Notes under the pieces: model-generated
The model's input: the letters and a program-made list of their open reading frames with translations, nothing else
Told to the model about the DNA's origin: nothing
The model's database searches: none
Virus record (IMG/VR): IMGVR_UViG_3300029258_003829
Location: 1-32,614 of that record
Length of the DNA stretch: 32,614 nucleotides
Reading direction: 5' to 3' (one strand)
Source: a virus
Position numbers and translations under genes: made by a program
Shown: positions 1 to 26,641 of the stretch, piece by piece
Layout of the letters: each line of letters opens with the position of its first letter
How positions within the stretch are numbered: the first letter of the stretch is position 1

Positions 1-147
1 TGTGGTGAGGGGCGATCAAAACTACATACAATGACCGGCCTGCCGCGAAGTCAGCGCCCGTCCTGCGCGCAACCGCCCGCCCCTCTTTGGCTTACGCCCC
101 ACATCAAACGCGCCCCGCTCCACTTTCGCCGCGAAAGGAGCCCACGC
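1..147. other. Left edge of the window, leader of the terminase gene
   Basis: No complete gene is visible here. The terminase reading frame stays open upstream to an ATG at 31, but the extra 39 residues are basic and proline-rich and look like untranslated leader. A small terminase subunit, which normally lies just upstream, must be outside the window or unrecognised. Confidence 0.4.
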
Positions 148-2262
148 GTGGCTGACCAGCAAGCACTCTTCGCTGGCGTAGACACCTCCCCCCGCGCGAA
201 GGGCGACGCCAAGGACGTCGAGCGCCGGCGCGCCCGCCGAGCCGCCGCCCGCGACGTCAAGGTCCTCCAGGTCGCCGATCCTGCCCGCCGCGACCGCTGC
301 AAGTTCAGCCTCCTCCGCTTCCTCGTCACCTATCTCGCCGCCCTCTTCCCCAAGCGCTTCTCCTGGAAGCATCTTCACGACATCCACCGCCTCCAGATGT
401 GCATCCTACACGGCCGCCGCTACGTCATCGCCGCGCCACGCGGATCCGGCAAATCCACCATCGTCATCGGCGCCTGCCTCTGGGCACTCCTCTACGGCCA
501 CCGCGCCTTCCTCGCCATCCTCTGCGCAAACCACATCAACAGCGTCGGCCGCCTCGACTCCATCCGCATGGCCATCGAGACAAACCCCCTCCTCCACGAA
601 GACTTCCCCGGCCCATGCGCCTGCGTCCGCGCACTTCAGGGCGCCTGGAACCGCGCCAACGCCCAGACCGTCGCCGGCGACCGAACCTACATCAAATGGG
701 GCGGCTCCGACATGCTCGTCTTCCCCACACTCAAAGGCGAGCCCTCATCCGGCGCCTGCATCGCCACCCGCTCGATGAAAACCGCCATCCGCGGCATCAA
801 CTACATGACCCCCGAAGGCATCATGCGCCGCCCCGACCTCGTCCTCTTCGACGATCCCATCGAGAAAGAGCAAGCCGAATCCCTCACCCTCGTCGAGAAG
901 TACGAAGACAAGATCAAGCGCGACGCACTCCAGCTCGGCGGCCCCGGCATCTCCATCGCCGCCGTCATGCTCATCACCGTCATCAAAGCCGACGACCTCG
1001 CCTCCCGCTTCCTCGACCACGAACGCTACCCCATGTGGTTCCGCTCCAAATGGAAACTCATGGACGCCATGCCCGACGACCTCGAACTCTGGGAAACCTA
1101 TCACGACCTCCGCATCCGCTCCCAGGAGAAGCACAAAGACACCCGCCTCTGCGACCGCTTCTACAAACGCAACCGCAACAACATGGACGCCGGCGCACGC
1201 CCCACCTGGCGCGAGCGCTTCAAACACGAAGAAGGCGAGATCTCCGCCACACAGCACGCCATGAACATCTACTTTGATGAAGGCCCCGAAGTCTTCCACG
1301 CCGAATACCAGAACGAACCCGAACCCGCCGACGCCGACGTCTCACTCGTCCTCGACGCCTATCGCGTCGAACGCTCCGGCTCCGGACTCGACCGCGGCAT
1401 CATCCCCAACGACGCCATCGCCCTCGTCGCCGGCGTCGACGTCAACAAATTCGGCTGCCACTGGGCCGTCCTCTCCGCCGCCCCCGGCCGCATCGTCAAC
1501 GTCGTCGACTACGGCGTCCAGGGCATCGACGCCCCCGTCGGCCGGATCGATCCCGATGACGACACCAAGCGCCAGGCCCTAGAGCTCGCCATCCTCGGAG
1601 GCCTCCGCCGCCTCCGCGAAAAGCTCACCGATCCAGACAACCCATTCCGGCGGCTCAGCGGAGAAACCATCGGCCTCACCCTCGCCCTCGCCGACTCGCG
1701 TTGGATGGGCAACGTCGTCGACCGCTTCTGCGCCGAGACCGGCAACCTCTTCTTCGGCGCGATGGGCTGCGGCACGCAACGCAACCAGCCCAAATTCAGG
1801 CCGCCCAAAGGCGCGCAGCTCTCGCGCGACGGCAATGTCTACGTCAAGTTCGACCCCATCACCGACGACCGAGGCAAACCCGTCGGCCAGTTGCGCCGCT
1901 TCATGGCCCACTCCGACAGCTACAAGCAGCAGCTCCACGCCGGCTTCTTCCTGGCGCCCGACGAGCCCGGATCCGTCCGCGTCTTCAGCCCCAAGCACCG
2001 CAAAGACCATCACTCCTACGCGCGCCACCTCACCGCCGAACTGCAGATCGAGAAGAGCCCCGGCGTCTTCGTGTGGGAATCCGTCCGGGGCCGCGCAGAC
2101 AACCACTATCTCGACGCCACCTACCTCGGCCTCTGCGCCATCAGCATCCTCGAACACCGCCTCCCCGCCCTCGCCATCACCGGAATCGTCCGCGAGGACG
2201 AAGAGGCCAAACCCAAACCCAAGCGCCGCGCCGCGGTGCAGATCGAACAGGTCGAGATATGA
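148..2262 (+). CDS. Phage terminase large subunit (ATPase and nuclease)
   Basis: This is the DNA-packaging motor that cuts concatemeric phage DNA and pumps it into the prohead through the portal. In the 704-residue protein a Walker A loop (PRGSGKST) lies at about residues 97-104. A Walker B segment (LVLFDDPIEKE) lies at about 231-241. The YQNEP motif, common in phage terminases, precedes a C-terminal RNase H-like nuclease domain with an acidic GVD strand near residue 431 and a final DNHYLDA motif around D651-D656. The GTG start is chosen because GAAAGGAG sits 7 bases upstream, the same ribosome-site type used by the following genes. The upstream in-frame ATG at 31 has no such site. The family assignment is firm. 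Whether packaging is cos or headful cannot be read from the sequence. Confidence 0.93.
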   Translation: MADQQALFAGVDTSPRAKGDAKDVERRRARRAAARDVKVLQVADPARRDRCKFSLLRFLVTYLAALFPKRFSWKHLHDIHRLQMCILHGRRYVIAAPRGSGKSTIVIGACLWALLYGHRAFLAILCANHINSVGRLDSIRMAIETNPLLHEDFPGPCACVRALQGAWNRANAQTVAGDRTYIKWGGSDMLVFPTLKGEPSSGACIATRSMKTAIRGINYMTPEGIMRRPDLVLFDDPIEKEQAESLTLVEKYEDKIKRDALQLGGPGISIAAVMLITVIKADDLASRFLDHERYPMWFRSKWKLMDAMPDDLELWETYHDLRIRSQEKHKDTRLCDRFYKRNRNNMDAGARPTWRERFKHEEGEISATQHAMNIYFDEGPEVFHAEYQNEPEPADADVSLVLDAYRVERSGSGLDRGIIPNDAIALVAGVDVNKFGCHWAVLSAAPGRIVNVVDYGVQGIDAPVGRIDPDDDTKRQALELAILGGLRRLREKLTDPDNPFRRLSGETIGLTLALADSRWMGNVVDRFCAETGNLFFGAMGCGTQRNQPKFRPPKGAQLSRDGNVYVKFDPITDDRGKPVGQLRRFMAHSDSYKQQLHAGFFLAPDEPGSVRVFSPKHRKDHHSYARHLTAELQIEKSPGVFVWESVRGRADNHYLDATYLGLCAISILEHRLPALAITGIVREDEEAKPKPKRRAAVQIEQVEI

Positions 2263-3408: not shown

Positions 3409-3470
3409 GAACCCGCCGCACCTTTCGGGAGCATTGAACCGTGAGTTTTAGAACAGGAAGGGGAAGCAAG

Positions 3471-3902
3471 ATGGACACTCCGACAGACGCCCCCCAGGGA
3501 CACAAGTGCGAGATCTGCGGGAAGAAGTTCAAAACCGACGGCTGGCTCGAGCGGCACATGAAGCTCCATAAGATCGAAGCCCGCGAGAACAGCGGCAGCC
3601 AGGCGACCCGCCCGCCCGTCTCCAGCGGCAAGCAACCGAAGAAGAAGACCCGCGTGCCTCGGAAACCGAAGCACACCCCGGCTCCGGCGCCAAAGCGCAA
3701 GTGGGAAGGCCTCGTCCCGATCGACCGCGTCAACGAACTCAAAGCGCAACTCGCCGACAGAAACAAAGAGATCCTCGAGCTGCAGCAAACACTCGCAGTT
3801 CAGAACCTGCGCGTCGGCAACCTCAAGAGCGCGCTGCAGGCCGCGCACACCGTCGTCAGTCTCGGCCTTAACGCCGACGTCGCCCGCCCCCAGGGGCAAT
3901 AA
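3471..3902 (+). CDS. C2H2 zinc-finger protein with basic linker and coiled coil
   Basis: The 143-residue product contains a complete classical C2H2 finger at residues 13-33: Cys13-x2-Cys16-x3-Phe20-x5-Leu26-x2-His29-x3-His33. This matches the full eukaryotic-type consensus including the two core hydrophobics, and it differs from the Ros/MucR bacterial variant. A strongly basic Pro/Lys linker follows (KQPKKKTR and PRKPK, about residues 54-68). A predicted coiled coil (about residues 80-125) ends the protein. Together this suggests a dimeric DNA- or RNA-binding protein. The ATG is preferred over the in-frame GTG at 3441 because a purine-rich AGGAAGGGGA precedes it. The target and role are unknown. 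Confidence 0.78.
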   Translation: MDTPTDAPQGHKCEICGKKFKTDGWLERHMKLHKIEARENSGSQATRPPVSSGKQPKKKTRVPRKPKHTPAPAPKRKWEGLVPIDRVNELKAQLADRNKEILELQQTLAVQNLRVGNLKSALQAAHTVVSLGLNADVARPQGQ

Positions 3903-3937: not shown

Positions 3938-6163
3938 ATGCCGGCCAGCAAAGCGAAGACGAAGACGACGCCCCCCGCAAAAAACAGCCGCAAAAAATCC
4001 TCTGAGAACTCTGTGCCCTCTGTGGCTGACGTTCGGATCCGCGCCCTGCCCGTCGCGGACATCATCCCCACGCCGGACAACCCGCGCGTGATCGACGAGA
4101 AGGCCCCCGCCTTCCTTGAACTCGTCGAGAGCGTGCGGGGCCAGGGCGTCCTTGTCCCCGTGCTCGTGCGCGCCCATCCCGACAAGCGCAAGAAGAACAA
4201 ATGGGACCTGCGCTACGGCGAGCGGAGAGTACGCGCTGCCCTCGCAGCGGGCCTTACGACCGTCCCCGCCATCGTCCGCCAACTGACGGACGAAGCGGCC
4301 TTCGAACTGACCTTCGCCGAGAACTACGCGCGCGAGGACCTCACGCCCATCGAGGAGGGCCGCGCCGTCGAGACGCTGGCAGCCAAGTTCCACGGCGACG
4401 TCAAAGCCATCGCCGCGAAGCTCGGCCGCTCGGAGAAGTGGGTCCACCTGCGCATGCGCCTGCAAACCCTGAGCAAGTCCTGGCGTGATCTCGCGGCGCA
4501 GAACCCAACGATGACGGTCGGGCATCTCGTCGCGCTGACTCGGTTCACCGCCGAGATCCAGGAGATGATCTGGGATGAGGAGCAGTGGGAATTTAACGAA
4601 ATCCCCGTCCCGTCTCTGGCCGAGTGGGAGTCCAAGCTCAACAACGAATGGGTCCGCGCGCTTGCCGCCGCTCCCTTCGACCTGGCCGACGCCACGCTCG
4701 ACAAGAAAGCCGGCGCATGCACGAATTGCATCAAGCGCTCATCCGCCCAGGGCCAGCTCTGGCACCAGCCCGAAGAGACGGCCGACGAAATCGCCAAGTC
4801 CGATCGCTGCCTCGACAACGACTGCTGGCACCGCAAACTCCAAGCCCACGGCGCCGCGCGCCTTAAGACACTCCACGCCGAGCATCCCGACGCCGTCGTC
4901 GTCAGCGTGCATCAGTGCTATTCGGGCGCCCTGCGCGACACCCGCGAGGCAAGCAAGGCCTTTGCCAACGCCATGGCCTCCGACAGCTACACGGAGGTCA
5001 AGAAGCAGGGAGAAAACACCGTCGAGGCCATCGTCGTGGACGGCCCCGAGCCCGGCCGCCTCATCCACATCAAGAAGACCGACTCCGGCCGCGGCCGCGG
5101 CGTCTCGTCATCATCGTCATCCAGCCCGAAAACCGCGTCTACGCCCACGCCCCTGAAGGCCCGCCGGAAGGTCCTCAAGTCCAAACGCCTCGCCGAACTC
5201 CTCAAGCAGCTCCTCGAGAAGGTCGAGCCCGTCACCTTCGAGGATCTCGACATCGTCCATGTCGGCGACCATGCGGCAAAACTCGGCCGACTCGTCGCGT
5301 GCATCGGCACCATCCGCTCAGAGACTCATGCCGGCGATGACGCCTGGTCGGACTACGATGCCCTTCCCGACATCGGCCCGGACTCCGCGAAGAGACTCTG
5401 GCCACGCGTGCGCGAGGTCCTGCTCGCCCGCCTCCGCTCCGGCTCGCCCATCACGCAGACGCATCACTACTACGAAGAAGAGTCCAAGCGCGTCGCCGAA
5501 TTCTGCGGCATCGACTGGGACGAGCTCTGGGCCGCCGCCTGCGAAGTCTACAAAGAGCCCAAATCCTGGGCGAATCTCAACGCCGACGGCACCCCGAAGA
5601 CGAACGGCAAGGCGAAATCGAAACCGAAACAGCGAACTGAGACCCCCGGAATCTGCCGCGTGTGCGGCGGCCCGGCCTTTGGGACAGACACGCTGTGCAA
5701 GCTCTGTATCCCCTGCTGTGCGGACTGCAGCGCCAAAACGAAAGCCGATTGTAAAGGCTGCACCTCAGCCAACCGCCAGCAGCATAAGACCCATCTCGCA
5801 AAGAAGAAAGCCGATGTGGCACAGCCCGCCCTGAGCCGGCCGAATGGGCCGCCCCCGGCTGTGAACAAGAAGAAGAGCAAGAAGCTCCTCCCCGTCTTCT
5901 CAACCGAGCAGCTCGCCGCCGCTCGCAAACGCCCCCACATCGAGATCCCCGACGGCCCCTCGCTCCTCATCATCCAGGAAGCCGACGACATCTTCGCCTG
6001 CTGGTGGATCTCCCCCGCCGGCGAAACCGAGAAGCGTCTCCCCAAGAAGTCCTATCCCGACTGCGACGATATCGCCGACGCCATCGAAGACATCAAGAGC
6101 TACGCCAACGAGCACGGCCATGACATCATCAACCCCGCCCCCGAGGAGGCAGACGAATCATGA
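3938..6163 (+). CDS. Large ParB-domain protein with extra zinc clusters
   Basis: The N-terminal part is a ParB/Spo0J-type domain. It has the IxPxPDNPR entry, the GERR box (residues 94-97, the CTP-binding motif of ParB proteins) and ENYAREDLTPIEE (128-140), followed by a helix-turn-helix region around 150-175. Two Cys pairs follow (C261/C264 and C291/C296). A very Cys-rich cluster spans roughly 573-606. A conserved-looking C-terminal alpha/beta region (about 640-735) ends in an acidic tail. At 741 residues it is more than twice a normal ParB. No ParA gene or parS-like site is visible, so plasmid-style partition is not supported. Phage ParB-like proteins often act as regulators or nucleases. 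AAAGGAG precedes the ATG. Confidence 0.85.
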   Translation: MPASKAKTKTTPPAKNSRKKSSENSVPSVADVRIRALPVADIIPTPDNPRVIDEKAPAFLELVESVRGQGVLVPVLVRAHPDKRKKNKWDLRYGERRVRAALAAGLTTVPAIVRQLTDEAAFELTFAENYAREDLTPIEEGRAVETLAAKFHGDVKAIAAKLGRSEKWVHLRMRLQTLSKSWRDLAAQNPTMTVGHLVALTRFTAEIQEMIWDEEQWEFNEIPVPSLAEWESKLNNEWVRALAAAPFDLADATLDKKAGACTNCIKRSSAQGQLWHQPEETADEIAKSDRCLDNDCWHRKLQAHGAARLKTLHAEHPDAVVVSVHQCYSGALRDTREASKAFANAMASDSYTEVKKQGENTVEAIVVDGPEPGRLIHIKKTDSGRGRGVSSSSSSSPKTASTPTPLKARRKVLKSKRLAELLKQLLEKVEPVTFEDLDIVHVGDHAAKLGRLVACIGTIRSETHAGDDAWSDYDALPDIGPDSAKRLWPRVREVLLARLRSGSPITQTHHYYEEESKRVAEFCGIDWDELWAAACEVYKEPKSWANLNADGTPKTNGKAKSKPKQRTETPGICRVCGGPAFGTDTLCKLCIPCCADCSAKTKADCKGCTSANRQQHKTHLAKKKADVAQPALSRPNGPPPAVNKKKSKKLLPVFSTEQLAAARKRPHIEIPDGPSLLIIQEADDIFACWWISPAGETEKRLPKKSYPDCDDIADAIEDIKSYANEHGHDIINPAPEEADES
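4000..4026 (+). repeat. Three 9-bp tandem repeats inside the ParB gene
   Basis: Three units, CTCTGAGAA, CTCTGTGCC and CTCTGTGGC, run head to tail. Read on the other strand the last unit is GCCACAGAG, identical to the first unit of the repeat at 31993. The array keeps frame and encodes part of the disordered N-terminal tail of the ParB-like protein. Confidence 0.7.
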
Positions 6164-7047
6164 AAGCAGGAGAATCCGGCATCGATTACGTCGACTTCTC
6201 ATGGGGCCCCTGGCGCGGCTGCCGGAAGGTCGCCGCGGGCTGCCTCTACTGCTACGCAGAACGCGACATGAAGCGCTACGGCCGCGATCACTCGAAGCTC
6301 GAACGCGCGAGCGACGCCACCTTCTACGCGCCGATCGCCAAAGACCGCCAAGGTCACTACAAGTGGCCGTCCGGATCTCGCGTCTTCGTCTGCCCCTGGA
6401 GCGACTGGTTCTTAGAGGACGTGCCGATCGAATGGCACAATGAGGCCCAGGCCGTCATGCGCATGCGCCGTGACCTGACGTTCATCATCCCGACCAAGCG
6501 CCTCGCCCAGGCCGCACCCTGGCAGGGCCAGCCGAACATGATCCTCCTCACTTCCGTCTCCACGCAGGCCGACCTCGACCGCGAGGCCCCCAAGCTCCTC
6601 CAGATCAGCGCCGACTACTTCCCCGTCAAGGGCCTCAGCCTGGAGCCGCTCATCGATCCGATCAGTTTGAGATGGTGCTCATGGGGATGGAATTCGCAAA
6701 GCACAACCGGGACGAACGAACATGATGGGCTAAGATGGCTCGATTGGATCGTCATCGGCTGCGAATCGGGACCACAACGCCGTCCGTGCAAGCTCGCATG
6801 GATCCTCGACATCATCGAGCAGTGCAAGGCGGCGAAGATCCCCTGCTACGTCAAGCAGATCCCGCTGCCCAAGCTCTCGAAACGCGGCCGCTACAACGCC
6901 ATGGTCGAGGCGATCACGTCAAAGAGCGTCGCCGACTGGGACCTCGCCTGCAAAGACCACGACTGGACCGTCTCGCGCGATCCGTCCGAATGGCCCATCG
7001 CCCTGCGAGTCCGGCAGTTTCCCCAAGCCCGGAAAGGAGCATCATGA
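6160..7047 (+). CDS. Phage Gp37/Gp68-family protein (DUF5131), three-Cys motif
   Basis: The 295-residue protein opens with the family signature: GIDYVDFSWGPWRGC followed by Cys21-x6-Cys28-x2-Cys31 and YAER. Further on come the ESGPQRRPC and PCYVKQIP elements that are also typical of it. The family is widespread in phages and plasmids and is thought to be related to radical-SAM or SPL-like enzymes. The Cys spacing here is not the standard CxxxCxxC, and the reaction is unknown. A stretch of about 20 residues (WCSWGWNSQS to NEHDG) looks like a family-variable insertion. The ATG overlaps the ParB stop as ATGA, so the two are translationally coupled. A shared function with ParB is an inference only. 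Confidence 0.83.
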   Translation: MKAGESGIDYVDFSWGPWRGCRKVAAGCLYCYAERDMKRYGRDHSKLERASDATFYAPIAKDRQGHYKWPSGSRVFVCPWSDWFLEDVPIEWHNEAQAVMRMRRDLTFIIPTKRLAQAAPWQGQPNMILLTSVSTQADLDREAPKLLQISADYFPVKGLSLEPLIDPISLRWCSWGWNSQSTTGTNEHDGLRWLDWIVIGCESGPQRRPCKLAWILDIIEQCKAAKIPCYVKQIPLPKLSKRGRYNAMVEAITSKSVADWDLACKDHDWTVSRDPSEWPIALRVRQFPQARKGAS

Positions 7048-7283
7048 TCGATCGACTGATGTGGATCGTCGCGATCTTCAGCCTCACCGGCACGCTGCTC
7101 GTCACGCATCGCCGGCGCAAGGGATTCCTCTTCTGGATCGGCACGAACTCCGCATGGATCGTCTACGACGTCCACAAGAGCGCGCTCGCCCAGGCCGCGC
7201 TCATGAGCATCTATCTCTGCCTGGCAATCTACGGATATTTCAAGTGGAAGCGCATCGCGACCACAGAGGAAAGGAGCGACTGA
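7044..7283 (+). CDS. Small PnuC-like membrane protein
   Basis: The 79-residue product has two or three membrane segments (about residues 5-20, 28-45 and 50-66). The pattern GFLFWIGTNSAWIVYD followed by YLCLAIYGYFKWKR resembles the core of PnuC-type nicotinamide riboside/NMN transporters, but it is about a third of the usual length. Very short PnuC-like proteins are found in other phages and may work as oligomers, or may only share the fold. GGAAAGGAG lies 4-5 bases before the ATG, and the start overlaps the end of the Gp37/Gp68 gene. Transport of an NAD precursor is a hypothesis, not shown. Confidence 0.62.
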   Translation: MIDRLMWIVAIFSLTGTLLVTHRRRKGFLFWIGTNSAWIVYDVHKSALAQAALMSIYLCLAIYGYFKWKRIATTEERSD

Positions 7284-7284
7284 C

Positions 7285-7812
7285 ATGGCAAAGAAGAAGG
7301 ACTCGAAGAAGCAAGCGCAGACGGGAGACCTGCTGCCCCCCGACGCGAACGTCGCCGCGCAGAAGGCCGGGGAGAAATCGGCCAAGCCCGCGCCTGATGC
7401 GGCCACCACGCCGCCCCCCGACGCGCCGCCCGTGGACGAAACCAAGGGCAAGCGCGACTACACGCCCAACCCCGTCGTCACGGAGATCCCCGTCGCCTGC
7501 CCGCGCTGCAAGAGCACGAACAGCCGCATCACAAAGACGACGACCTTCCCGCATCGCCCGCTGGAGATCGCCGGCAAGACGTATCCCGGCCGCATCTGCC
7601 GCCGCCGCACCTGCCTCAAGTGCGGCCGCCGCTACGTCAGCAATGCGCCCTACGAGCCGGAGCCGAAACCCACGCCGCCCAAGCCCTGCGATCTCTGCGA
7701 CGGACGCGGTATGTTCCCGCGCGACCCGAAGACCGGCGCGAAGGCCCGCCTATGCCCGGCCTGCGACGGCAGCGGCCTTGAAGAAACTCTCGCTGAAGAC
7801 GCCAAGAAGTGA
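7285..7812 (+). CDS. Zinc-ribbon protein with DnaJ-like CxxCxGxG units
   Basis: The 175-residue protein has a disordered Lys/Ala/Pro-rich N-terminal third. Next comes a zinc ribbon built from CPRCKS (about residue 72) and CRRRTCLKCGRRY (about 108-120). A second pair of knuckles of DnaJ type follows (CDLCDGRGMF and CPACDGSGL). The ribbon resembles those of phage Ogr/Delta-type and NrdR-like DNA-binding proteins, but the match is only in Cys spacing. A regulatory or nucleic-acid-binding role is plausible. AAAGGAG lies upstream, and the gene follows the membrane protein without a gap. Confidence 0.72.
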   Translation: MAKKKDSKKQAQTGDLLPPDANVAAQKAGEKSAKPAPDAATTPPPDAPPVDETKGKRDYTPNPVVTEIPVACPRCKSTNSRITKTTTFPHRPLEIAGKTYPGRICRRRTCLKCGRRYVSNAPYEPEPKPTPPKPCDLCDGRGMFPRDPKTGAKARLCPACDGSGLEETLAEDAKK

Positions 7813-8027: not shown

Positions 8028-8042
8028 GAGATGCTTGGTATA

Positions 8043-8384
8043 ATGCGCATCATGAAATCGCTGCGAGCCTGGACAATCGTCGTCTGCCTCATTGCCGGCT
8101 GCGCTGCGCCGTCCGTCCTCCATAGCTCTTCGCCGTCGAAGCAGAGCGACGGAGGATGGACCGTCGTCCGCGTCACGGACGGCGACACGTTCATCGTCCA
8201 GAATGATGCCGGCAAACGCGAGCGCGTTCGACTTCGCCGCGTCAACGCGCCCGAACTCGACGAGCCGGGCGGACCCGAAGCGCGCGACGCGCTCGAGGCC
8301 GCCCTGCTCGGAAAACGCATCAAGCTGACCATCTACGCGCGCGATAAATGGGGACGCATCATCGCCGAGATTCCTACAGAATAG
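8043..8384 (+). CDS. Predicted lipoprotein with truncated staphylococcal-nuclease (TNase) fold
   Basis: The 113-residue protein has an N-terminal signal with lipobox LIAGC (Cys20), so it is probably lipidated and anchored outside the inner membrane. It then shows the nuclease core: TDGDT (D46 and D48, matching the Asp19/Asp21 region), R63 (matching Arg35), E71 (matching Glu43), and the DKWGR arginine (matching Arg87). The Asp40 calcium ligand is replaced by Asn68 in VNAPE. The chain stops right after AEIPTE, so the last strand and helices of the usual fold are missing. Activity is uncertain. The start is the ATG 12 bases after AGGAG; ATGs at 8031 and 8052 are alternatives. The 3' end overlaps the first palindrome. 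Confidence 0.77.
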   Translation: MRIMKSLRAWTIVVCLIAGCAAPSVLHSSSPSKQSDGGWTVVRVTDGDTFIVQNDAGKRERVRLRRVNAPELDEPGGPEARDALEAALLGKRIKLTIYARDKWGRIIAEIPTE

Positions 8385-8570: not shown

Positions 8571-9050
8571 ATGCAGTTTGAGCAACTGACGGAGATCTCG
8601 GGCATCACCCTCCTGCACGTTGCGGACGCGCACGACGCCGGCCAGGGCACGCTCACCGCCGAGACCGCTGACACGCTCACCTGGCTGGCCCCCGGCTCCG
8701 AGACCGCAGGCGACGAAGTCACGATCGCCAACGGCGAGACGAAGATCATCGCGGACGGCGATGACGCGACCCAGTTCATCGTCGTCTCGCGCACGTCCGC
8801 GAGCGACCTCGACGGCACGTGCGTCCTGCTGCTTCTCACAACCAAGTCCACGCAGGAGCGCCTCGAGGAAGTTGACGCCGCGATCTCGCAATGTCTGAAG
8901 GCACAGGCCTCCGGCCAGGGCGACAGCAACATCACGCGCGCATCGCTCGACAGCCTCCGCCGCTATCGCAAGGAACTCTACGCCGAACTGCTCCGCGAGC
9001 AGGAAAGCAGCGCGCGCGTCGCGCAGGCCGATATGAGCGGGAACTTCTGA
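8571..9050 (+). CDS. gpW-like head completion protein with extra N-terminal domain
   Basis: The C-terminal half (about residues 93-150) is a helical hairpin: STQERLEEVDAAISQ, then a short turn region, then LDSLRRYRKELYAEL. This pattern is typical of lambda gpW and related small proteins encoded just before the portal gene. They plug the portal after packaging. The N-terminal 90 residues are unusual for the family. They look like a beta-rich domain (GTLTAETADTLTWLAPGS and similar), so the 159-residue protein is longer than a normal gpW of about 70. Position, directly upstream of the portal with a TGATG overlap, supports the call. The start follows the terminator with only a weak AAGGCAGAG ribosome site. 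Confidence 0.6.
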   Translation: MQFEQLTEISGITLLHVADAHDAGQGTLTAETADTLTWLAPGSETAGDEVTIANGETKIIADGDDATQFIVVSRTSASDLDGTCVLLLLTTKSTQERLEEVDAAISQCLKAQASGQGDSNITRASLDSLRRYRKELYAELLREQESSARVAQADMSGNF

Positions 9051-10522
9051 TGCCACGAAAACGGAAAAACAGAAACCGCAATCTGGGGCATCCGAACGCG
9101 CCCCTCGCCGACTACGACGCGACGAACAACAAGAAGAAGCGCCAGGCGCCGCGCTCGTCGATCAAGTCCGAGGACGCGCTGCTCACGACGACGAAGCGCC
9201 GCAAGCTCACCGCCACGGCCCAGGATCAGATCCGCAACTTCGCGGTCGCCGCCTGGATGGTCCGCAAGCACACCTCCTACGTCTCCCGCTTCAACTTCCA
9301 CTCGTCCATGGAAGACGACGGCTTCGAGAAGGAACTCAAAGCCTTCATCTCATACCGATCCCAGGGCGCGCAGTTCGACCGCGCCGGCCGGCTGAATCGG
9401 CAACGGGCGTTGACGATGACCGAGCGCCACGCCGTGGTCGACGGCGACGTCTTCTGGCATCTCCTCCGGACCGGAGAGGTGCAGCTCATCGAGGGCGATC
9501 TCGTCTGGACGCCGAACGATCTGCCCGCGCAATACAGCGCCGACCGCTACAACTGGGTCCACGGCATCGACGTGGACGCGGCGACCAAGCCCCGCCGCTA
9601 CTGCCTCTGTACGCGCGACGGCAGCTCGCGACGATTCGGCATGATCGCCCAGGCGCAGAACATCCTCCACCGCGCGTATTTCCCGCGCGCGAACACCGTG
9701 CGCGGCGTGTCTCCCCTCTCCTCCGCCCTCAACACCCTGCAGGACCTCTACGAGGGATTCGACTACCAGCTCATCAAGGCCAAGCTCCACGCGCTCTTTG
9801 GCGTGGCGATCCTCAGCGACGGCATCCAGGGCGCCGCCGGATTCGACATCAGCGAGACCGTCACCGAAGGCGAGGAATCGTCCGCCGACGCGGACGACGT
9901 CACGCACGAGATCAAGCGGCACTACATGAAGCCCGGCGCGGCGAGCGTGCTCACGCTGCCGGCGGGCACGTCCATCGAGACCTTCGAATCGAAGACCCCC
10001 TCCGGCGAGTTCCGCGACTTCTCCGAGCTGATGATGCAGATCGGCATGCTCGCGATCGACCTGCCCTACATCTTCTTCAACGCCAAGGACGGGAGCTTCT
10101 CCATTCATCGGACCGCCCGCCTCGAATACGAGAAATCCTGCAAGGACAAGCGCGACGAGAATATCTCGCTGCTCGACCGCTGGACGCTGCGTCAACTCAT
10201 GATCGGCATCGAGGACGGAACGTTCTCGCTGCCCTCCCGCTGGACGCTCGATGACGTGCTCTGGGAATGGGTGCCCGAGTCGACCCCCTGGTTCGACGAG
10301 ATGGACGAGATCGACGCCGCGCTCGCCGGCATCGGCGGCGGCATCGTCGACCCCTACAAATGGCTCAAAGAGCGCACCGGGCAGGACGGCGACCAGGTCC
10401 TCGAGAACATCGCCAAATTCCAGAAGAAGGCCGAGGACCTCGGCCTGCAGCTCGTCTGGGCGCGCGCCCCCATCACCCTCACCGCGTCCACGCAACCCAC
10501 ACGAAAGGACCGCGACCAATGA
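9050..10522 (+). CDS. Portal protein, lambda gpB type
   Basis: The 490-residue protein forms the ring through which DNA enters the head. It begins with a basic tail, then shows lambda-family features: the FHSSMEDD region, ERHAVVDGDVFW, VRGVSPLSSALNTLQDLYEGFD and a hairpin near LPAGTSIETFES. Also present are DLPYIFFNAKDGSFSIHRTARLE-type crown contacts and the closing segment IVDPYKWLKERTG, matching the WVDPLKE-like end of lambda gpB. Its neighbours (gpW-like before, S49 protease after) give the expected order. The ATG shares bases with the gpW-like stop (TGATG), so start choice depends on coupling rather than on a strong ribosome site. Confidence 0.88.
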   Translation: MPRKRKNRNRNLGHPNAPLADYDATNNKKKRQAPRSSIKSEDALLTTTKRRKLTATAQDQIRNFAVAAWMVRKHTSYVSRFNFHSSMEDDGFEKELKAFISYRSQGAQFDRAGRLNRQRALTMTERHAVVDGDVFWHLLRTGEVQLIEGDLVWTPNDLPAQYSADRYNWVHGIDVDAATKPRRYCLCTRDGSSRRFGMIAQAQNILHRAYFPRANTVRGVSPLSSALNTLQDLYEGFDYQLIKAKLHALFGVAILSDGIQGAAGFDISETVTEGEESSADADDVTHEIKRHYMKPGAASVLTLPAGTSIETFESKTPSGEFRDFSELMMQIGMLAIDLPYIFFNAKDGSFSIHRTARLEYEKSCKDKRDENISLLDRWTLRQLMIGIEDGTFSLPSRWTLDDVLWEWVPESTPWFDEMDEIDAALAGIGGGIVDPYKWLKERTGQDGDQVLENIAKFQKKAEDLGLQLVWARAPITLTASTQPTRKDRDQ

Positions 10523-12135
10523 GCAAAGACCCGTCCCCGCGCCGCCTCAATATCTCGCGCGCCCTGGCCGGCCGTCTCACGCGGCCCTACGCCATGCGCC
10601 GCGCCGACATGCACAGCCTCTTCATCAGCGCGTTTCAGGAGACGCCGTCCGATCTCTATCTCAACGACGACGATCTGGGGACCGAGGATCCGCAGCCGCT
10701 GAACGTCGTCAACGGCGTCGCCGTCATCACGATCCAGGGCGTCATGATGAAGGGCGCGCCGCGCTACTACGTCGAAATGGGCTACGCGACCGACACGGAC
10801 AACGTGCGCGAGCAGGTCCTTATGGCGCTCGCGGACAACTCCGTCAATGCGATCCTCATGCCGATCTACAGCCCCGGCGGCGAGGTCTACGGACTTGATC
10901 AACTGGCCGACGCCGTATTCCAGGGCCGCGCGTCGAAACCGATCCACGCCTACATCGAGGACCTCGGCGCCTCGGCGGCCTATCTCGTCGCCAGCCAGGC
11001 GACGACGATCAGCGCGAACCGCACGGCCATGATCGGCTGCATCGGCACCTACGTCATGATCGAGGATATCAATCGGTGCCTGATGGACATGGGCATCGAC
11101 ACGCGCATCGTCTCCAGCGGGCTTCTCAAGGGCGGCGACGCAGGCGGCTCCATCATCACCGAGGCCATCCTGGCCGACGAGCAGCGCCTCATCAACGGCT
11201 TCTCCGCCGACTTCATCAAGGCCGTCGCGCGCGGACGCATGATCCCGGAAGAGACCGCGCAAGCCTGGGCGACCGGGCAGGTCTGGATCGGCGAGAGCGA
11301 GGCCCTGCCCATGGGACTGATCGATTCGTTAGGAACGCTCGACGCGGCGCTGGGCCGCGCCGTTTCTTCAGGCACTGGCCGGGGCGCGAACCCGGCCGAA
11401 TCAGAGGAAGGAGACCAGGCCATGAATATCTTTGGCCGGCGTAAGACGGGCTCCGCCGAATCGGCCGAGGACACCCAGGCCGTTGGTTCGGAGGAGCAGG
11501 ATCAGGAACAGGTCGGCGAGACCGGCGCATTGCAGGTCACGATCGAACCGCAGGAAGCCGTGGACGCGGGCGCGCAGTTCTCCGTCGACGACGGAGAGCC
11601 GCTCGACAGCGGAACCACGGTCGAAGGCCTGGCCCCCGGAGATCACGGGGTGAGCTACACCGAAGTCGAAGGCTTTGTCGCCCCCGGCGATGAAGTCGTC
11701 GCCGTGGTCGCGAACGAGACCACGCAGCACACGGCCGAATACGGCCCTGTCGAAGAGGACGAGGCCGAACCACCCGAAGGCGAACCCACGGAAGGCGAGC
11801 AGGCGCAGGCGGGCATGACCCCCGCGCAGGCCCTTCAACTCGCCCAGACGATCGGCGCGGAAAAGGCCCTCGAGGCCGCCGCCGCCGGCAAGACGGTCGA
11901 GGAAGCCCTCACCGAGCACATCAAGACGCTTGAAGCCAAGGATGGCGCTCGCGAGCAGGCCCTCAAGGACGCCAACGCCCTCGGGTCCGACGACGCCGTG
12001 CCGACTCAGGCCGCGGACGCGACCAATCGGAAGCCCAGGGGCTTCCAGAAGAACGCCCCGATCTCCGAGGACGACCGCATCGGCAAGGCCGCCGCCGCCA
12101 TCGAGGCCGGACGTCGGAAGAACGCGAAACAGTAG
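10519..12135 (+). CDS. S49-family prohead protease fused to scaffold (lambda C/Nu3 type)
   Basis: The 538-residue protein has an SppA/ClpP-like serine protease in its first 300 residues. SPGGEV precedes the nucleophile Ser152 in LGASAAYLVAS, and the general-base Lys204 lies in GLLKGGD. The 52-residue spacing equals that of the Ser/Lys dyad of Bacillus SppA. The second part is acidic and helical, as in scaffolding proteins, and ends in a basic tail (GRRKNAKQ). Between them (about residues 337-413) lies a beta domain resembling the PEGA-like GxxVxIEPxEAVDAGAQFSVDDG repeat. In lambda the same gene makes the protease and, from an inside start, the scaffold. That inside start is visible here too. 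The ATG overlaps the portal stop. Confidence 0.88.
   Translation: MSKDPSPRRLNISRALAGRLTRPYAMRRADMHSLFISAFQETPSDLYLNDDDLGTEDPQPLNVVNGVAVITIQGVMMKGAPRYYVEMGYATDTDNVREQVLMALADNSVNAILMPIYSPGGEVYGLDQLADAVFQGRASKPIHAYIEDLGASAAYLVASQATTISANRTAMIGCIGTYVMIEDINRCLMDMGIDTRIVSSGLLKGGDAGGSIITEAILADEQRLINGFSADFIKAVARGRMIPEETAQAWATGQVWIGESEALPMGLIDSLGTLDAALGRAVSSGTGRGANPAESEEGDQAMNIFGRRKTGSAESAEDTQAVGSEEQDQEQVGETGALQVTIEPQEAVDAGAQFSVDDGEPLDSGTTVEGLAPGDHGVSYTEVEGFVAPGDEVVAVVANETTQHTAEYGPVEEDEAEPPEGEPTEGEQAQAGMTPAQALQLAQTIGAEKALEAAAAGKTVEEALTEHIKTLEAKDGAREQALKDANALGSDDAVPTQAADATNRKPRGFQKNAPISEDDRIGKAAAAIEAGRRKNAKQ
11422..12135 (+). CDS. Nested scaffolding protein from internal start (Nu3-like)
   Basis: An in-frame ATG (MNIFGRR) inside the protease gene is preceded by AGAGGAAGGAGA, one of the better ribosome sites in the window, about 8 bases upstream. 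Translation would give a 237-residue protein without the protease domain. It would have a short linker, the beta domain (about residues 37-112 of this product), an Ala/Glu-rich helix-forming stretch (MTPAQALQLAQTIGAEKALE), then a basic C-terminus that could bind the capsid protein. This is exactly the lambda C/Nu3 design. The start is inferred from sequence; no expression is shown. Confidence 0.72.
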   Translation: MNIFGRRKTGSAESAEDTQAVGSEEQDQEQVGETGALQVTIEPQEAVDAGAQFSVDDGEPLDSGTTVEGLAPGDHGVSYTEVEGFVAPGDEVVAVVANETTQHTAEYGPVEEDEAEPPEGEPTEGEQAQAGMTPAQALQLAQTIGAEKALEAAAAGKTVEEALTEHIKTLEAKDGAREQALKDANALGSDDAVPTQAADATNRKPRGFQKNAPISEDDRIGKAAAAIEAGRRKNAKQ

Positions 12136-13733: not shown

Positions 13734-15812
13734 ATGAACGTCGTTGTCGCCACAAAGAACTGCCGCGAGTGCCGCGAGCTGAGAAAGCTCCGTCGCGCTC
13801 AACCGGGCACGAAGGTCGTCGACTACGAGGACCTCGCCCGCCTCGTCTGCCCCGTGCCGCCCGGCCGCCGCGATCTCAGCCAAGCGCCACAGCCTGAAGA
13901 CACCTCACCCCACAACGTCATGGTGAAGATCCCGCCCGCGCCGGAGATCTCCCTCGAGATGTTCTTCGCGCTTTTCGGCCAGGGCCTGGCCGCGCCGATT
14001 CCCGAGTTCGGCAACGGCGTCCCGACGGATCGCCAGTGCCTCCTCAGCCTCTGCCGCACGTTTCGGCCTCGGCGCGTGATGGAGATCGGCGTGCGCTACG
14101 GAGCCACGGCGTATCTTCTCCTGCGCGAATGCCCCTGGATCGAGGAGTACTGGGGCGTCGATTGCGGCCCCGAATACAAAATGGGAATCCCCACTCAGCA
14201 CGGCGAGCACCCCGACTGCGTGGGCCACGACGGCATCGACGCCACGCAGGAACACGCCGTCTGGCGCGAGAAGGATACGGCCTGCGGCAAGTGGGTCGAC
14301 GATCCACGCTTTGTCCTGAAAGTTCTGCCGAACGGCTCGCACGACATCGATCCGGAGACCTGCGGCAAGTTCGATGTGATCTTCGTCGACGGAGATCATT
14401 CGCGCCCTGGCGTCTGGTTCGACAGCAAACTCGCCCGGCAGATCGTCCGCCGCCCGGGGGGCGTCATAGCCTGGCACGATTACAAGCGCGGGAATCCGGA
14501 CCCCGGCGCCGGAGCCGCGCACGATGTTGTTGATTTCCTGAATCGCCGCGAGCGCCGGAAGATTCATAAAATACAAGGGACATGCCTGGCGTTCAAAATC
14601 ACCGAGGAAACCGACAATCATCTGCCCTGCAGCACGTTCAAAGCGATCCATATTCCCGACTCGCCCGTCCAGTTCAATTCCTCCATTGCCGCCGCCGTTC
14701 GAGAGCCTCACGGCAAGCCGACCGGCTATCTCGTCGCCCTGCGCCGCGATTATAAGCTGCCGGGCTCCATGGGCCTCGCCTTCGTTGACGAGGACTTCGA
14801 GGCCGCGTCCGACACGCTGATGCAGTGGCCGAACGGCGAGGATCCGCGCCTCGTGCGCGTGCCGGGCACAAATCGCTACCTCCTGCTGCACAGCCGCCTC
14901 GAGGGCGACGTGCCGCGCATCCAGGTCGCCACGGAGATCGAGGCGAGCTATCCGGACAAAGTCAAAATCGTGCGCCGGACTCGCCTGCGCACCGTCATCG
15001 GCGGCAAGGGTCTCGACCCGTCCATCCTCAAAGCCGGGCACGGCGCCGCGCCTCAGCCCGACTACAAGCGCAACGAGATCACGCCGCTCGCGATCATCGA
15101 GAAAAACTGGGTCCCGTTCATCTACGGGCAGAAGCTGCTCATCTCCTACGGGCTGAACCCGCACATCGTCATGGAAATCGCCGACTGGGACAAGGGCGTC
15201 GTCCGCCCGCTCCATGCGACCTACACAGAGCGCCTGCCGATCGACATGCATCTGCACGGCTCCACGCCGCACGTCTACGTGCCGGCCCTCGACGCCTATC
15301 TCAGCCTATTTCACACGAGTTGGACGCGCCTGAAATACGATCCGCGCCTCTTCGACGCGGCAGCGGGCTGCTATTCGCTCGGCTTCCTCCTCATCGAGGC
15401 CAAACCGCCCTTCAGAATCACGCACGCAAGCCGCCGAGGCGTCACCTTCCACGATCTTTATCCCGAAATCCACTTCGACACGACGCGGCCCAACGTCACC
15501 GGCACGATCTTCCCCGCCGGCCTCGTCATTCGGGGCGACCAGGTCATCGTGAGCTACGGCGAGGGCGATCTGCGCACGCGCGTCGCCGTCTGCAAGCTCG
15601 AAGACGCTCTCAACACGCTCGAACCGATCTACCCCACGATGGAAGAGCCGGACGTCATGGCCTCTCTGCCGATCGACAGCCCCGGAGCCCCCATCGCGCA
15701 CGTGGATCGCCGCCTCTTCAAGCCCGGTCCAAGATCCCGGCGGGAGCGCCCGTCCGTCCCCTCTCCGGACGCCCGCCGGGACCACCGCCAGGAGTACGCG
15801 TATCGTGATTAG
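13734..15812 (+). CDS. Methyltransferase fused to a GH130-like five-bladed propeller
   Basis: The 692-residue protein has two parts. Residues about 100-260 form a class I SAM-dependent methyltransferase of the CmcI/Methyltransf_24 kind, with motif I VMEIGVRYGATA (115-126), DVIFVDGDHSRPG (214-226) and IAWHDY near 245. Residues about 330-660 look like a glycoside hydrolase/phosphorylase 130 propeller, with EDPR (369-372), EKNWVPF (456-462) and a blade near 590 (GTIFPAGLVIRGDQVIVSYG). GH130 enzymes break beta-mannosides by phosphorolysis, and some relatives only bind sugar. A short Cys motif (CRECREL) begins the chain and a basic tail ends it. It lies among virion genes, so sugar-modifying or sugar-binding work on the particle is inferred. 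GAGAGAGAAGA precedes the ATG. Confidence 0.75.
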   Translation: MNVVVATKNCRECRELRKLRRAQPGTKVVDYEDLARLVCPVPPGRRDLSQAPQPEDTSPHNVMVKIPPAPEISLEMFFALFGQGLAAPIPEFGNGVPTDRQCLLSLCRTFRPRRVMEIGVRYGATAYLLLRECPWIEEYWGVDCGPEYKMGIPTQHGEHPDCVGHDGIDATQEHAVWREKDTACGKWVDDPRFVLKVLPNGSHDIDPETCGKFDVIFVDGDHSRPGVWFDSKLARQIVRRPGGVIAWHDYKRGNPDPGAGAAHDVVDFLNRRERRKIHKIQGTCLAFKITEETDNHLPCSTFKAIHIPDSPVQFNSSIAAAVREPHGKPTGYLVALRRDYKLPGSMGLAFVDEDFEAASDTLMQWPNGEDPRLVRVPGTNRYLLLHSRLEGDVPRIQVATEIEASYPDKVKIVRRTRLRTVIGGKGLDPSILKAGHGAAPQPDYKRNEITPLAIIEKNWVPFIYGQKLLISYGLNPHIVMEIADWDKGVVRPLHATYTERLPIDMHLHGSTPHVYVPALDAYLSLFHTSWTRLKYDPRLFDAAAGCYSLGFLLIEAKPPFRITHASRRGVTFHDLYPEIHFDTTRPNVTGTIFPAGLVIRGDQVIVSYGEGDLRTRVAVCKLEDALNTLEPIYPTMEEPDVMASLPIDSPGAPIAHVDRRLFKPGPRSRRERPSVPSPDARRDHRQEYAYRD

Positions 15813-24670: not shown

Positions 24671-26197
24671 ATGGCTGTTTACGAAGATGAATTCGATTAT
24701 TCCCCGCCCGCGCACGTACTGGGCTCTCAGCCGGACGAGCCGTGGGCGAACACGTCCAACATCTACACGGGCGAAATCACCGGATTTCCGTGGTCGCATT
24801 CCGCCTATATGTATAACAACTGGACCAACGCGTATTCGTACAACACCTTTGCCGATCTGCCGGGGCGATTCACATACGAAGCCCACGTCAAAACGTTTGG
24901 GACGGCGTATCCGAGCGGAAGCGACTGGGTCGACGTCGGGCTCACGATTTATGAGGGCTATTATTACGTCCTGTGGACGCACAGCCACAAAGCGGCCACA
25001 GGCAAACTACAGTTCTACGCGAACGGCGTTCTCCTCGCCGAGACCGTCGTGCCGTCGCCGGGCCTCGGGGGCACCTACGCGGGCACGATCAAGGTCGAGG
25101 TCAACGGGCCGAATTTCAAGGTCTACTGGAACGACATCTTTTACTTTTCCATCGACGACTCGGGCGCATCGAGTGGCCGATTCGGCATTCGCGGCTATGA
25201 ACGCGACTGGCGAGGCGGCGCATGGGATTGGGTCCGAATCACCTATGGCGGTGGAGGTTATCCCGTGCACATCATAGAGGACTATGAGGGAGAGACCTAC
25301 GCGGCGAATGCGGCCGTGATCGGCGACTACGTCCAGATCGAGGACACGGAGGGCAACTACGTCATCGCGTCGGCGGCCCCCGCGTCGGCCTATGGCGACA
25401 AGATTCTGGCGATCGGCCTCGACTCGCTCTGGTCCACGCTGGCAAGCTCTCTGGCGTCATCGCGCGCATCGAGCCGGGCCTCCTCGCTGGCCAGTTCGCT
25501 TGCGTCCTCGCTGGCCAGTTCGCTTGCGTCGAGCCGCGCGAGCGCCTTCGCCTCGAGCGGGGCGTCGTCCGGCGCGGGCTCTTCCCTCTGGTCCACGCTC
25601 GCATCGTCACGCGCATCGAGCCTGGCCTCGTCGCTGGCGAGCTCCCTGGCCTCATCGCGCGCAAGTTCTTTGGCCTCATCCCGCGCGTCCAGTCTTGCCT
25701 CATCGCGCGCGTCCTCGCTTGCCAGCTCCCTCGCGTCCTCACGGGCCAGCTCGCGGGGAAGCAGTCTGGCGTCGAGTCTGGCCTCATCGCTCGCGTCAAG
25801 CCTCGCATCGTCACGCGCATCGTCGCTGGCCTCGAGCCTGGCATCGTCGCTGGCCTCCAGCCGCGCATCGTCGCGCGCGAGTTCGCTCGCGTCGAGCAAC
25901 GCCACGGGCTGGCAATCCGTCCCGCCCAGCTCCGGCGGTGGACCGTATCCCGGTGGATCCTATTGCTGCTACGGCTATCTCTGCCAGCTGAGCGCCGGGG
26001 ACCCGTATGCCGAGGTCTGCTCGGCGACGGGCCATATTGCCGATTGCTCCACGCAGCCGAATTGCCATTATGAGCAGTTGGCGGATCGCTGCTCCGCTGA
26101 TGGCGCCGGCAACGACTCATGCCCCAACGGCGGCGGTGGCCTCCGCTATTGCTATCTGTTGACTCATTCTGAGTGCTCAAACGATTCCGTGTTGTGA
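24671..26197 (+). CDS. Serine-rich repeat virion protein: lectin-like head, SSxA stalk, Cys-rich tip
   Basis: The 508-residue protein has three parts. Residues about 1-200 form a ConA/LamG-like beta sandwich of the kind found in sugar-binding adhesins ([28 protein letters not shown], then [20 protein letters not shown]). Residues 255-411 contain 38 copies of Ser-Ser-x-Ala, with x mostly Leu or Arg, in two blocks of 12 and 26. Each block begins with LWSTLA. A tip of about 95 residues has 10 Cys, which suggests disulphides. It lacks a clear Shine-Dalgarno sequence. It lies after the tail-tip genes and directly before the glycosyltransferase genes. It is most likely a receptor-binding fibre. O-glycosylation of the Ser stalk is a hypothesis. 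Confidence 0.72.
25433..25903 (+). repeat. 12-bp periodic coding repeat (38 SSxA units)
   Basis: The DNA repeats with a 12-base period over 471 bases, and the second block starts at the second LWSTLA near 25592. Ser codons vary freely between TCN and AGC and Leu/Ala third bases vary. The array therefore diverged under protein-level selection rather than arising by very recent slippage. It is in-frame coding sequence and not a CRISPR array. Confidence 0.88.
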
Positions 26198-26206
26198 GAT
26201 CAATTC

Positions 26207-26641
26207 ATGGGCAACCCTGTCGAAAAAAATCCGGCTGAGAGCTGCGTCGAGGCGACGATCATCCGAGACGAGCGTCACGATTCGGTCAAGTGCGCGATCA
26301 TCAACGGGCTCATGGGCCGCGACGCTGGCATGCACATCGACGGCTGCGCCTTCTGCCGTCATGCCGACGGCGACGATTCGTTCTGCGTCCGGATGGCAAA
26401 AAGCCTTTTGCGCACGTGCATCTCGAGCGGGCGATTTCCAAGTCTGGAGAATTCCAAAGACCTGGCGACGCTTTCGCAGAACTACGCCGCGCTCGCGACG
26501 CGCGAGGAATGCGAATCGTTGCTCGCCCTGGCCACGGCGAAAATCACGGCCACGCAGACGATCGGCGAGGCGGAGGGCTTGCAGCAGCTACGCGAGATCG
26601 ACGAGGGACTCGGCACGAACGCACTGGAGACGATGCTATGA
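26207..26641 (+). CDS. Small Cys-containing hypothetical protein
   Basis: The 144-residue protein has no recognised family. Its first half is Cys-rich (SVKCAIINGLMG, then CAFC, FCVRMA and LLRTC), arranged as a possible zinc site. Its second half is a helical, acidic stretch (DLATLSQNYAALATREECES and following). The gene lies between the serine-rich repeat protein and the glycosyltransferase and ends in an ATGAGC overlap with the latter. A helper or adaptor role in the same pathway is possible but unproven. The ribosome site is poor. Confidence 0.55.
   Translation: MGNPVEKNPAESCVEATIIRDERHDSVKCAIINGLMGRDAGMHIDGCAFCRHADGDDSFCVRMAKSLLRTCISSGRFPSLENSKDLATLSQNYAALATREECESLLALATAKITATQTIGEAEGLQQLREIDEGLGTNALETML

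Follow-up and report, generated by a model that had tools for sequence, protein, structure and literature searches.

Do the large ParB-like gene and the DUF5131 gene that lie side by side in a bacterial virus encode a dedicated nucleic-acid-modifying pair, or do they share a phage neighborhood on looser terms? The window, that is, the whole stretch of DNA analyzed, covers 32,614 nt (positions 1 to 32,614 of IMG/VR record IMGVR_UViG_3300029258_003829), and all genes described here lie on its plus strand. A sequence-only reading had proposed a 741-residue ParB-domain protein coupled by an ATGA overlap to a three-Cys Gp37/Gp68-family protein, and these descriptive points hold: ORF and profile matches place a ParB-like protein of the orphan phage type (741 aa) at 3938..6163, profile matches and a fold model place the DUF5131 protein (phage Gp37/Gp68 family, 295 aa) at 6160..7047, and the two genes share 4 nt (ATGA). 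This overlap is not specific evidence of a pair, because the DUF5131 gene meets the next gene in the identical way; that gene (7044..7286) encodes a 79-aa membrane protein corresponding to the C-terminal part of the NMN transporter family. Overlaps of 4 nt occur at 5 of the 20 gene junctions listed in the window. Directly upstream of the ParB gene lies a small protein with one C2H2 zinc finger (3471..3902, assuming a start codon at 3471; the mechanical ORF is 3441-3902). The terminase large subunit (31..2262) and the portal protein (9050..10522; longer mechanical ORF 8891-10522) border a 6.8-kb interval, compared with a spacing of ~0.5-2.8 kb in 13 related phages with both genes on one locus, none of which carries ParB or DUF5131 between them. 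The reading we favor, with a probability of roughly 0.5 as a whole, is that the locus is accessory cargo of this phage lineage, placed between terminase and portal, and that ParB and DUF5131 are accessory nucleic-acid genes belonging to a common phage toolkit and sharing a context, any complex between them being non-obligate.

Profile searches of the ParB-like protein locate ParB_N at residues 34-129 (6.5e-18) and HTH_ParB at 133-209; PF02195 (65 bits) and PF17762 (31 bits) both exceed their cut-offs, giving a ParB_N fold with an HTH, and TIGR00180 scores 109.4 against a cut-off of 58.45. Beyond these domains lie a first Cys cluster (C261, C264, C291, C296), a helical domain at about 405-545, an “EPKSW” region at 540-551, and a second Cys cluster at 573-608 followed by a C-terminal tail. 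The “two extra Cys clusters” noted earlier thus need to be separated: 140 of 143 related phage ParBs (85 of 86 in an earlier set) carry the first, which makes it a family trait, and the second is a real but less common addition, with at least five Cys in the last 220 residues in up to 30/143; this is a maximum, since in the shorter ParBs those residues can reach the first cluster. Likewise, “oversized” applies only in a relative sense, since the protein exceeds the median of 585 aa and yet 15/143 relatives, window included, have at least 741 aa (lengths are those of ORFs, hence some starts are over-long). The nucleotide-pocket motifs are kept in the window protein as GERR (box II, 94-97) and ENYAR (box III, 128-132); GxRR is found in 142/143 and ENxxR in 140/143 related phage ParBs, and an earlier alignment comprised 52 of 86 listed ParBs plus the window. 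The top structural matches of the modeled protein, whose confidence is low beyond about residue 560, are ParBs bound to CDP or CTPgammaS. Because the pocket motifs are kept and the best-matching structures are CDP- or CTP-analogue-bound ParBs, a nucleotide-gated clamp is plausible from sequence and model. The specificity for CTP, however, is not readable from sequence, according to the parts of the published work on orphan phage ParBs drawn on here (PMC12704722).

ParB_N with an HTH, together with a partial match to the PRTRC-system ParB (TIGR03734; 108.8 bits against a cut-off of 278.6), might suggest the plasmid-style partition system of an episomal phage, with its ParA supplied by the host or missing. 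The sequence-only reading had seen no ParA or parS, and our searches bear this out: the ParA family PF13614 and canonical parS, with up to 3 mismatches allowed, are absent from the 32.6-kb record, which may itself be a fragment. The ParA-binding motif, by a pattern taken from the available portion of PMC12704722, is absent from the window ParB and from 143/143 related phage ParBs. We therefore reject partition as the function of this locus and regard it as very improbable.

The DUF5131 protein passes its family cut-off comfortably (PF07505, 1.4e-42, 146.3 vs. 28.9 bits) and also matches phrog_2045. Its three Cys (C21, C28, C31) form a CX6CX2C motif that is invariant across 86 aligned DUF5131 proteins, the alignment consisting of 85 of 89 listed locus proteins plus the window (L059, a copy of L057; L134 and L135, from the same records as L023 and L091; and the truncated L018 were left out, and six further proteins with an irregular Cys pattern or too short a sequence had been excluded beforehand). 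An invariant Cys triad this close to the N-terminus would suit a [4Fe-4S] cluster. The model (mean pLDDT 87.9) is a radical-SAM-type barrel, with the partial TIM barrel of that superfamily. Foldseek places spore photoproduct lyase at ranks 1-4 and 6-7 (E 0.003-0.012), and VIA-align gives Z-scores of 12.5 for this lyase (205-206 residues, 3.4 A), 10.9 for RlmN, and about 10 for viperin; all 32 listed structure entries with Z of at least 8 are proteins known as radical SAM enzymes. The SAM site is not proved by this, since the Foldseek E-values are modest and none is below 0.001. At the sequence level, a search of the PDB set with an E limit of 1 gives no match for the protein. As modeled, the fold fits an iron-sulfur enzyme acting on nucleic acid. 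We found no known reaction for the family, although the window protein alone has matches in 146 phage records (out of 50,697) and 342 plasmid records (out of 72,556).

Whether the two families belong together was addressed by a survey of viral ParB loci, in which DUF5131 lies within a ~6-kb flank of 27/142, against 3/80 control loci centered on Bet and 1/80 centered on terminase. The outcome that would have told against the pairing, namely that the families rarely occur together elsewhere, is thus not what viral contigs show from the ParB side. Grouped at 50% identity, DUF5131 accompanies 22 of 109 ParB clusters, window counted. Synechococcus phage MinM1 is an example of a phage with both families. 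The seed alignments of both ParB scans held ParBs from DUF5131-bearing phages, which may inflate these counts, and this is partly answered by the 18/104 obtained without seed-holding clusters. One-sided Fisher tests, which treat loci or clusters as independent, give p = 7e-4 for ParB loci against the Bet set and p = 0.01 for seedless clusters against 3/66 non-redundant Bet loci. Such enrichment can arise without shared function, through early-region clustering of accessory genes, a tendency that the Bet control, itself seeded from DUF5131 phages, covers only roughly. Co-orientation is strict, with all 28 ParB-DUF5131 pairs at the 27 loci on the same strand, compared with 1103/1540 neighbor genes. 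The converse view tempers the survey: such a ParB occurs at 5/80 DUF5131 loci, and at 2/80 among the nearest DUF5131 relatives. Across 300 bacterial genomes of one order, 35 contain DUF5131 and 18 match the ParB Cys-domain model; the two lie within 12 kb of each other in the seed genome only.

The arrangement seen in the window is itself exceptional. Elsewhere, ParB comes first in 19 pairs and DUF5131 in 9, with gaps of up to 4.2 kb; intervening genes are usual, and clean adjacency is confined to the window. Among the closest other ParB relatives, sought in 44 viral records and one genome (142 ParB loci entering the survey), genes lie between the two or DUF5131 is distant. Several candidates for a second clean case were discarded: in the VarioGold and Aval phages, the gene after a large ParB overlaps it or lies close by, but its product has no Pfam match; L146 was not counted because the opposite end of its contig repeats that gene start and then has ~1.1 kb with further ORFs ahead of DUF5131; and in L469, L493, and L504 the two genes are, by the chosen starts, 125-211 nt apart with ORFs in this space (short ORFs across the gap in L493 and L504, a short GTG-start frame in L469, by eye). 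No ParB-DUF5131 fusion was seen among the surveyed loci, and ParB-linked members are scattered over the DUF5131 tree without grouping. In a Pfam scan of 117 of the 126 same-strand immediate DUF5131 neighbors, no family stood out as a partner; the most frequent ones (terminase ATPase, integrase, helicase C-terminal, and ASCH) were seen in 3/117 each. As a separate observation, genes for ASCH, a modified-base reader, recur beside both ParB and DUF5131; at DUF5131 loci they are found in 8/80, against 1/80 and 0/80 in the controls.

Much of this could be expected if the two genes were pure cargo neighbors, with unrelated jobs, meeting where accessory genes accumulate in the same phage regions. The variable order and spacing, the scatter of ParB-linked proteins over the DUF5131 tree, the few DUF5131 loci with a ParB, and the near absence of co-localization from bacterial genomes all suit this account, which we consider possible though on balance unlikely, as it must contend with enrichment over two controls, strict co-orientation, and recurrence in 22 ParB clusters. 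The opposite extreme is a dedicated two-protein machine, in which the radical-SAM enzyme modifies DNA to which it is brought by the ParB clamp. The overlap in the window, the conserved pocket residues together with the radical-SAM-type fold, and the precedent of the ParB-like proteins DpdB and DndB in base- or backbone-modification systems, as portrayed in the sections of PMC12839542 and PMC10853773 used here, speak for such a machine; we nevertheless judge it quite unlikely, given clean adjacency in the window only, the lack of fusions among surveyed loci, and the intervening genes or far-off DUF5131 in the closest other ParB relatives. What stands of the proposed DNA- or RNA-modifying pair is the pocket residues, the radical-SAM-type model, and the ParB-side enrichment. 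A shared pathway or cargo region is supported and a fixed two-subunit enzyme is not, because adjacency is nearly confined to the window, order varies, the converse rate is low, and the 300 genomes are nearly empty of the combination.

A phage-borne defense or counter-defense role, in which the pair protects lysogen or phage, appears similarly improbable. The DUF5131 protein matches the PADLOC candidates PDC-M41B (1.1e-31) and PDC-M30B (1.1e-30), and the cargo found between terminase and portal varies within this phage group, but the PADLOC candidates are predictions and profile searches recognized no effector-like domain in either protein. The three-Cys-motif partner TcmP (TIGR04474, tcm_partner), the named partner family of DUF5131, is found in 0/40 viral DUF5131 records, a set outside which the window record falls.

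Returning to the favored reading of two accessory genes in one toolkit, the orphan, non-partition ParB-CTPase-fold protein would most likely bind an NTP, by default CTP but perhaps ATP or GTP, use its HTH and zinc domains to find a target site in phage or host DNA, and close on that DNA as a clamp. DUF5131 would most likely be an enzyme of radical-SAM type whose C21, C28, and C31 hold a [4Fe-4S] cluster and which acts on a base or nucleotide by radical chemistry. Both proteins would serve the same phage nucleic-acid business, joined in other phages by ASCH-type modified-base readers, as separate proteins gained and lost independently. A bolder version, which we hold to be doubtful, is a phage-specific, ParB-guided radical-SAM system in which an NTP-gated clamp with a zinc module slides on phage DNA and passes bases to an enzyme resembling spore photoproduct lyase that makes or removes a base modification, ASCH then reading or processing the product, with ParB, DUF5131, and ASCH as interchangeable parts of a widespread phage toolkit. 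The confidently modeled radical-SAM-type fold nearest a DNA-repair lyase, together with the recurrent context with orphan ParBs and modified-base readers, makes DUF5131, widespread in phages and plasmids, a testable candidate nucleic-acid enzyme, and through this context the orphan phage ParBs gain a candidate pathway.

Among known systems, the orphan phage ParB-CTPase-fold proteins (Kaljevic et al. 2025, PMC12704722), in the portion of that paper available to us, share with the window ParB a ParB_N outside a parAB operon, a phage origin, the lack of a ParA-binding motif, and extra C-terminal domains. These orphan ParBs are described there as binding different NTPs; the fusions named for them are to DUF3850, DUF4417, and methyltransferases, DUF5131 not being among them, and neither DUF5131 nor radical SAM occurs in the main text. 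The PRTRC-system ParB resembles the window protein in ParB_N, HTH, and the first Cys cluster region (window match 47-323) and differs in that the score stays far under its cut-off; plasmid PRTRC ParBs are among the tblastn matches. Spore photoproduct lyase (PDB 4fhc and kin), a radical SAM enzyme that acts on nucleic acid, is the best fold match of the DUF5131 model, but identity is 10-12% and DUF5131 carries CX6CX2C, whereas the lyase motif is CX3CX2C. Radical SAM mobile pair protein A (TIGR04471) is the sole NCBIfam match of the DUF5131 protein (3.4e-8), which is not a member because it reaches 33.3 bits against a cut-off of 355. Finally, while DpdA is a TGT homologue, DndC a PP-loop enzyme, and DUF5131 of radical-SAM type in our model, the DpdB-DpdA and DndB-DndC systems, as far as the consulted parts of their descriptions go (PMC12839542, PMC10853773), are alike in that a ParB-superfamily protein is encoded with a DNA-changing enzyme.

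Our neighborhood survey, covering 142 ParB loci (80 of long ParBs and 62 of those nearest to the window ParB, the latter being what was left of 80 returned after 18 already in the first set were removed), finds DUF5131, the Gp37/Gp68 family, enriched near ParBs. It is present in 12/80 and 15/62 of these loci (27/142 in all), versus 1/80 terminase and 3/80 Bet recombinase control loci. When the 143 ParBs, window included, are collapsed into 109 clusters at 50% identity, 22 clusters have a DUF5131 neighbor, as do 18 of 104 when clusters holding seed sequences are left out. All 28 ParB–DUF5131 pairs in the 27 loci are co-oriented, compared with 1103/1540 neighboring genes by crude gene calls. Among bacterial contigs, DUF5131 occurs in 4/35 ParB loci, from three genomes. 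From the DUF5131 side, a long Cys-cluster ParB lies in 5 of the 80 loci fetched versus 0/80 in each control, and a ParB in 2/80 of the DUF5131 loci most like that of the window; a ParB_N match anywhere in the whole record is found in 14/80, a count that excludes the added L002 and phage MinM1, both of which have such a match. Of 300 genomes of one bacterial order, 35 contain DUF5131 and 18 match the ParB Cys-domain model; the two lie less than 12 kb from each other in the seed genome alone, and a second genome carries them on one contig, ~17 kb apart. The pairing proposed from sequence alone is thus real, recurrent and modestly enriched, but on present evidence it is not obligate.

In the window, both open reading frames, their domains and the 4-base overlap noted in the sequence-only reading were confirmed: a 741-aa ParB-like protein with ParB_N and HTH_ParB domains (3938-6163) is followed by a 295-aa DUF5131 protein (6160-7047). 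The overlap on its own says little, because 5/20 listed window junctions share it, including the ATGA between the DUF5131 gene and the C-terminal part of an NMN transporter (7044-7286; 79 aa; PF04973, 4e-11). Among the loci compared, only the window has a clean ParB/DUF5131 overlap; gaps may be as short as a few bases or as long as 4.2 kb, and the order varies, with ParB first in 19 pairs and DUF5131 first in 9. L146 is ambiguous: the two contig ends (L510) disagree, showing the same ParB-side junction with and without ~1.1 kb before DUF5131, a difference that reflects either strain variation or an assembly fault. L453 has one 798-aa ParB gene flanked by two DUF5131 genes, with an ASCH gene downstream. 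A small protein with a single C2H2 finger (3441-3902) adjoins the window ParB gene; in 4/80 ParB loci (L106, L111, L112, L176) such a protein is the immediate neighbor of ParB or lies two genes away, but the second ParB set has no such case (0/62), nor do the DUF5131, terminase and Bet sets (0/80 each).

The nucleotide-pocket motifs of ParB are conserved. The window protein has GERR at 94-97 and ENYAR at 128-132, and when it is counted with the ParBs of the 142 loci, GxRR is found in 142/143, ENxxR in 140/143, the first Cys cluster in 140/143 and a ParA-binding motif in 0/143. ParA and a canonical parS are likewise absent from the window record (perhaps a fragment), as had been noticed from the sequence. 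The ParB model (mean pLDDT 75.1) is good over most of ~33-380, 405-430 and again ~480-550, and poor beyond 560; its best structural matches are ParB with CTPγS or CDP, over ~200 residues. The window ParB has its C-terminal helical region, including an EPKSW motif, in common with L097 (34% identity), L176 (34%) and L337 (a bacterial contig, 33%). Of these near relatives, L176 has DUF5131 ~1.2 kb downstream and L097 elsewhere in its 87-kb record, and a search of the L337 genome found no DUF5131. The kept motifs, family-wide Cys cluster, structural matches and shared C-terminal features therefore place the window ParB among the Cys-cluster-bearing orphan ParBs of phages, which form a broad class. 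A 2025 survey covers such orphan proteins with the ParB-CTPase fold in phages, and states that nucleotide specificity is not reliably predictable from sequence (PMC12704722).

For DUF5131, modeling gives good support to a radical-SAM-type barrel. A CX6CX2C motif (C21, C28, C31) is invariant in 86 aligned proteins, as are D82, K113, R114, E162-P163, G200, E202, R208 and W214. The model (mean pLDDT 87.9) returns spore photoproduct lyase at the top of a Foldseek search with modest E-values (0.003-0.012; nothing below 0.001), and VIA-align ranks 4fhc, a spore photoproduct lyase, first (Z 12.5, 205 residues, 3.4 Å), followed by RlmN (10.9) and by viperins and further members of the radical SAM superfamily. 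Several radical-SAM-named proteins among predicted viral structures match with weak scores, and two PADLOC candidate-defense models match the protein. A SAM radical reaction is likely for DUF5131.

The window, which spans its virus record from end to end (32,614 bases), holds the pair within a 6.8-kb interval of small genes between the terminase (31-2262) and the portal (9050-10522), to the right of which lie a head protease and a GP7-type major capsid protein. This interval is lineage-specific cargo, because in 13 related phages with both genes on the fetched locus the spacing is ~0.5-2.8 kb and none has ParB or DUF5131 there. In L195, a terminase-related phage, the same site holds a different nucleic-acid gene, an ASCH-domain protein by Pfam (10461-11687) whose C-terminal part reads, by eye, like a PP-loop domain. 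ASCH-like genes, a possible third partner, were counted with a purpose-built profile from four seeds (two Pfam-confirmed as ASCH) and occur in 8/80 DUF5131, 5/80 ParB and 8/62 further ParB loci, and in 1/80 and 0/80 controls; in L007, L047, L068 and L087 they directly adjoin or overlap the gene for DUF5131, and in L358 that for ParB. Elsewhere in the window, a short staphylococcal-nuclease-like protein (8031-8384; PF00565, 22.1 bits) precedes a head–tail adaptor gene; proteins with a methyltransferase domain (13734-15812 and 26290-28842), which also match glycoside phosphorylases or glycosyltransferases weakly, lie amid phage structural genes; and a predicted protein at 24671-26197, with no Pfam match, has a long Ser-Leu/Arg-Ala-Ser repeat run near its middle.

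Beyond the domains, motifs, DUF5131 model fold and statistical neighborhood, which the analysis shows, a mechanism can be proposed in which ParB would bind NTP and clamp DNA, DUF5131 would hold an iron–sulfur cluster and make a radical, and both may serve phage nucleic-acid metabolism. Among the papers listed by an open-access library, whose coverage leaves out most subscription journals, we recognized none on a ParB–DUF5131 link. The concept of a ParB-superfamily protein beside a DNA-modifying enzyme has precedent, since DpdB and DndB are known, as two earlier papers describe (PMC12839542, PMC10853773); the new element here would be a radical-SAM-type partner.
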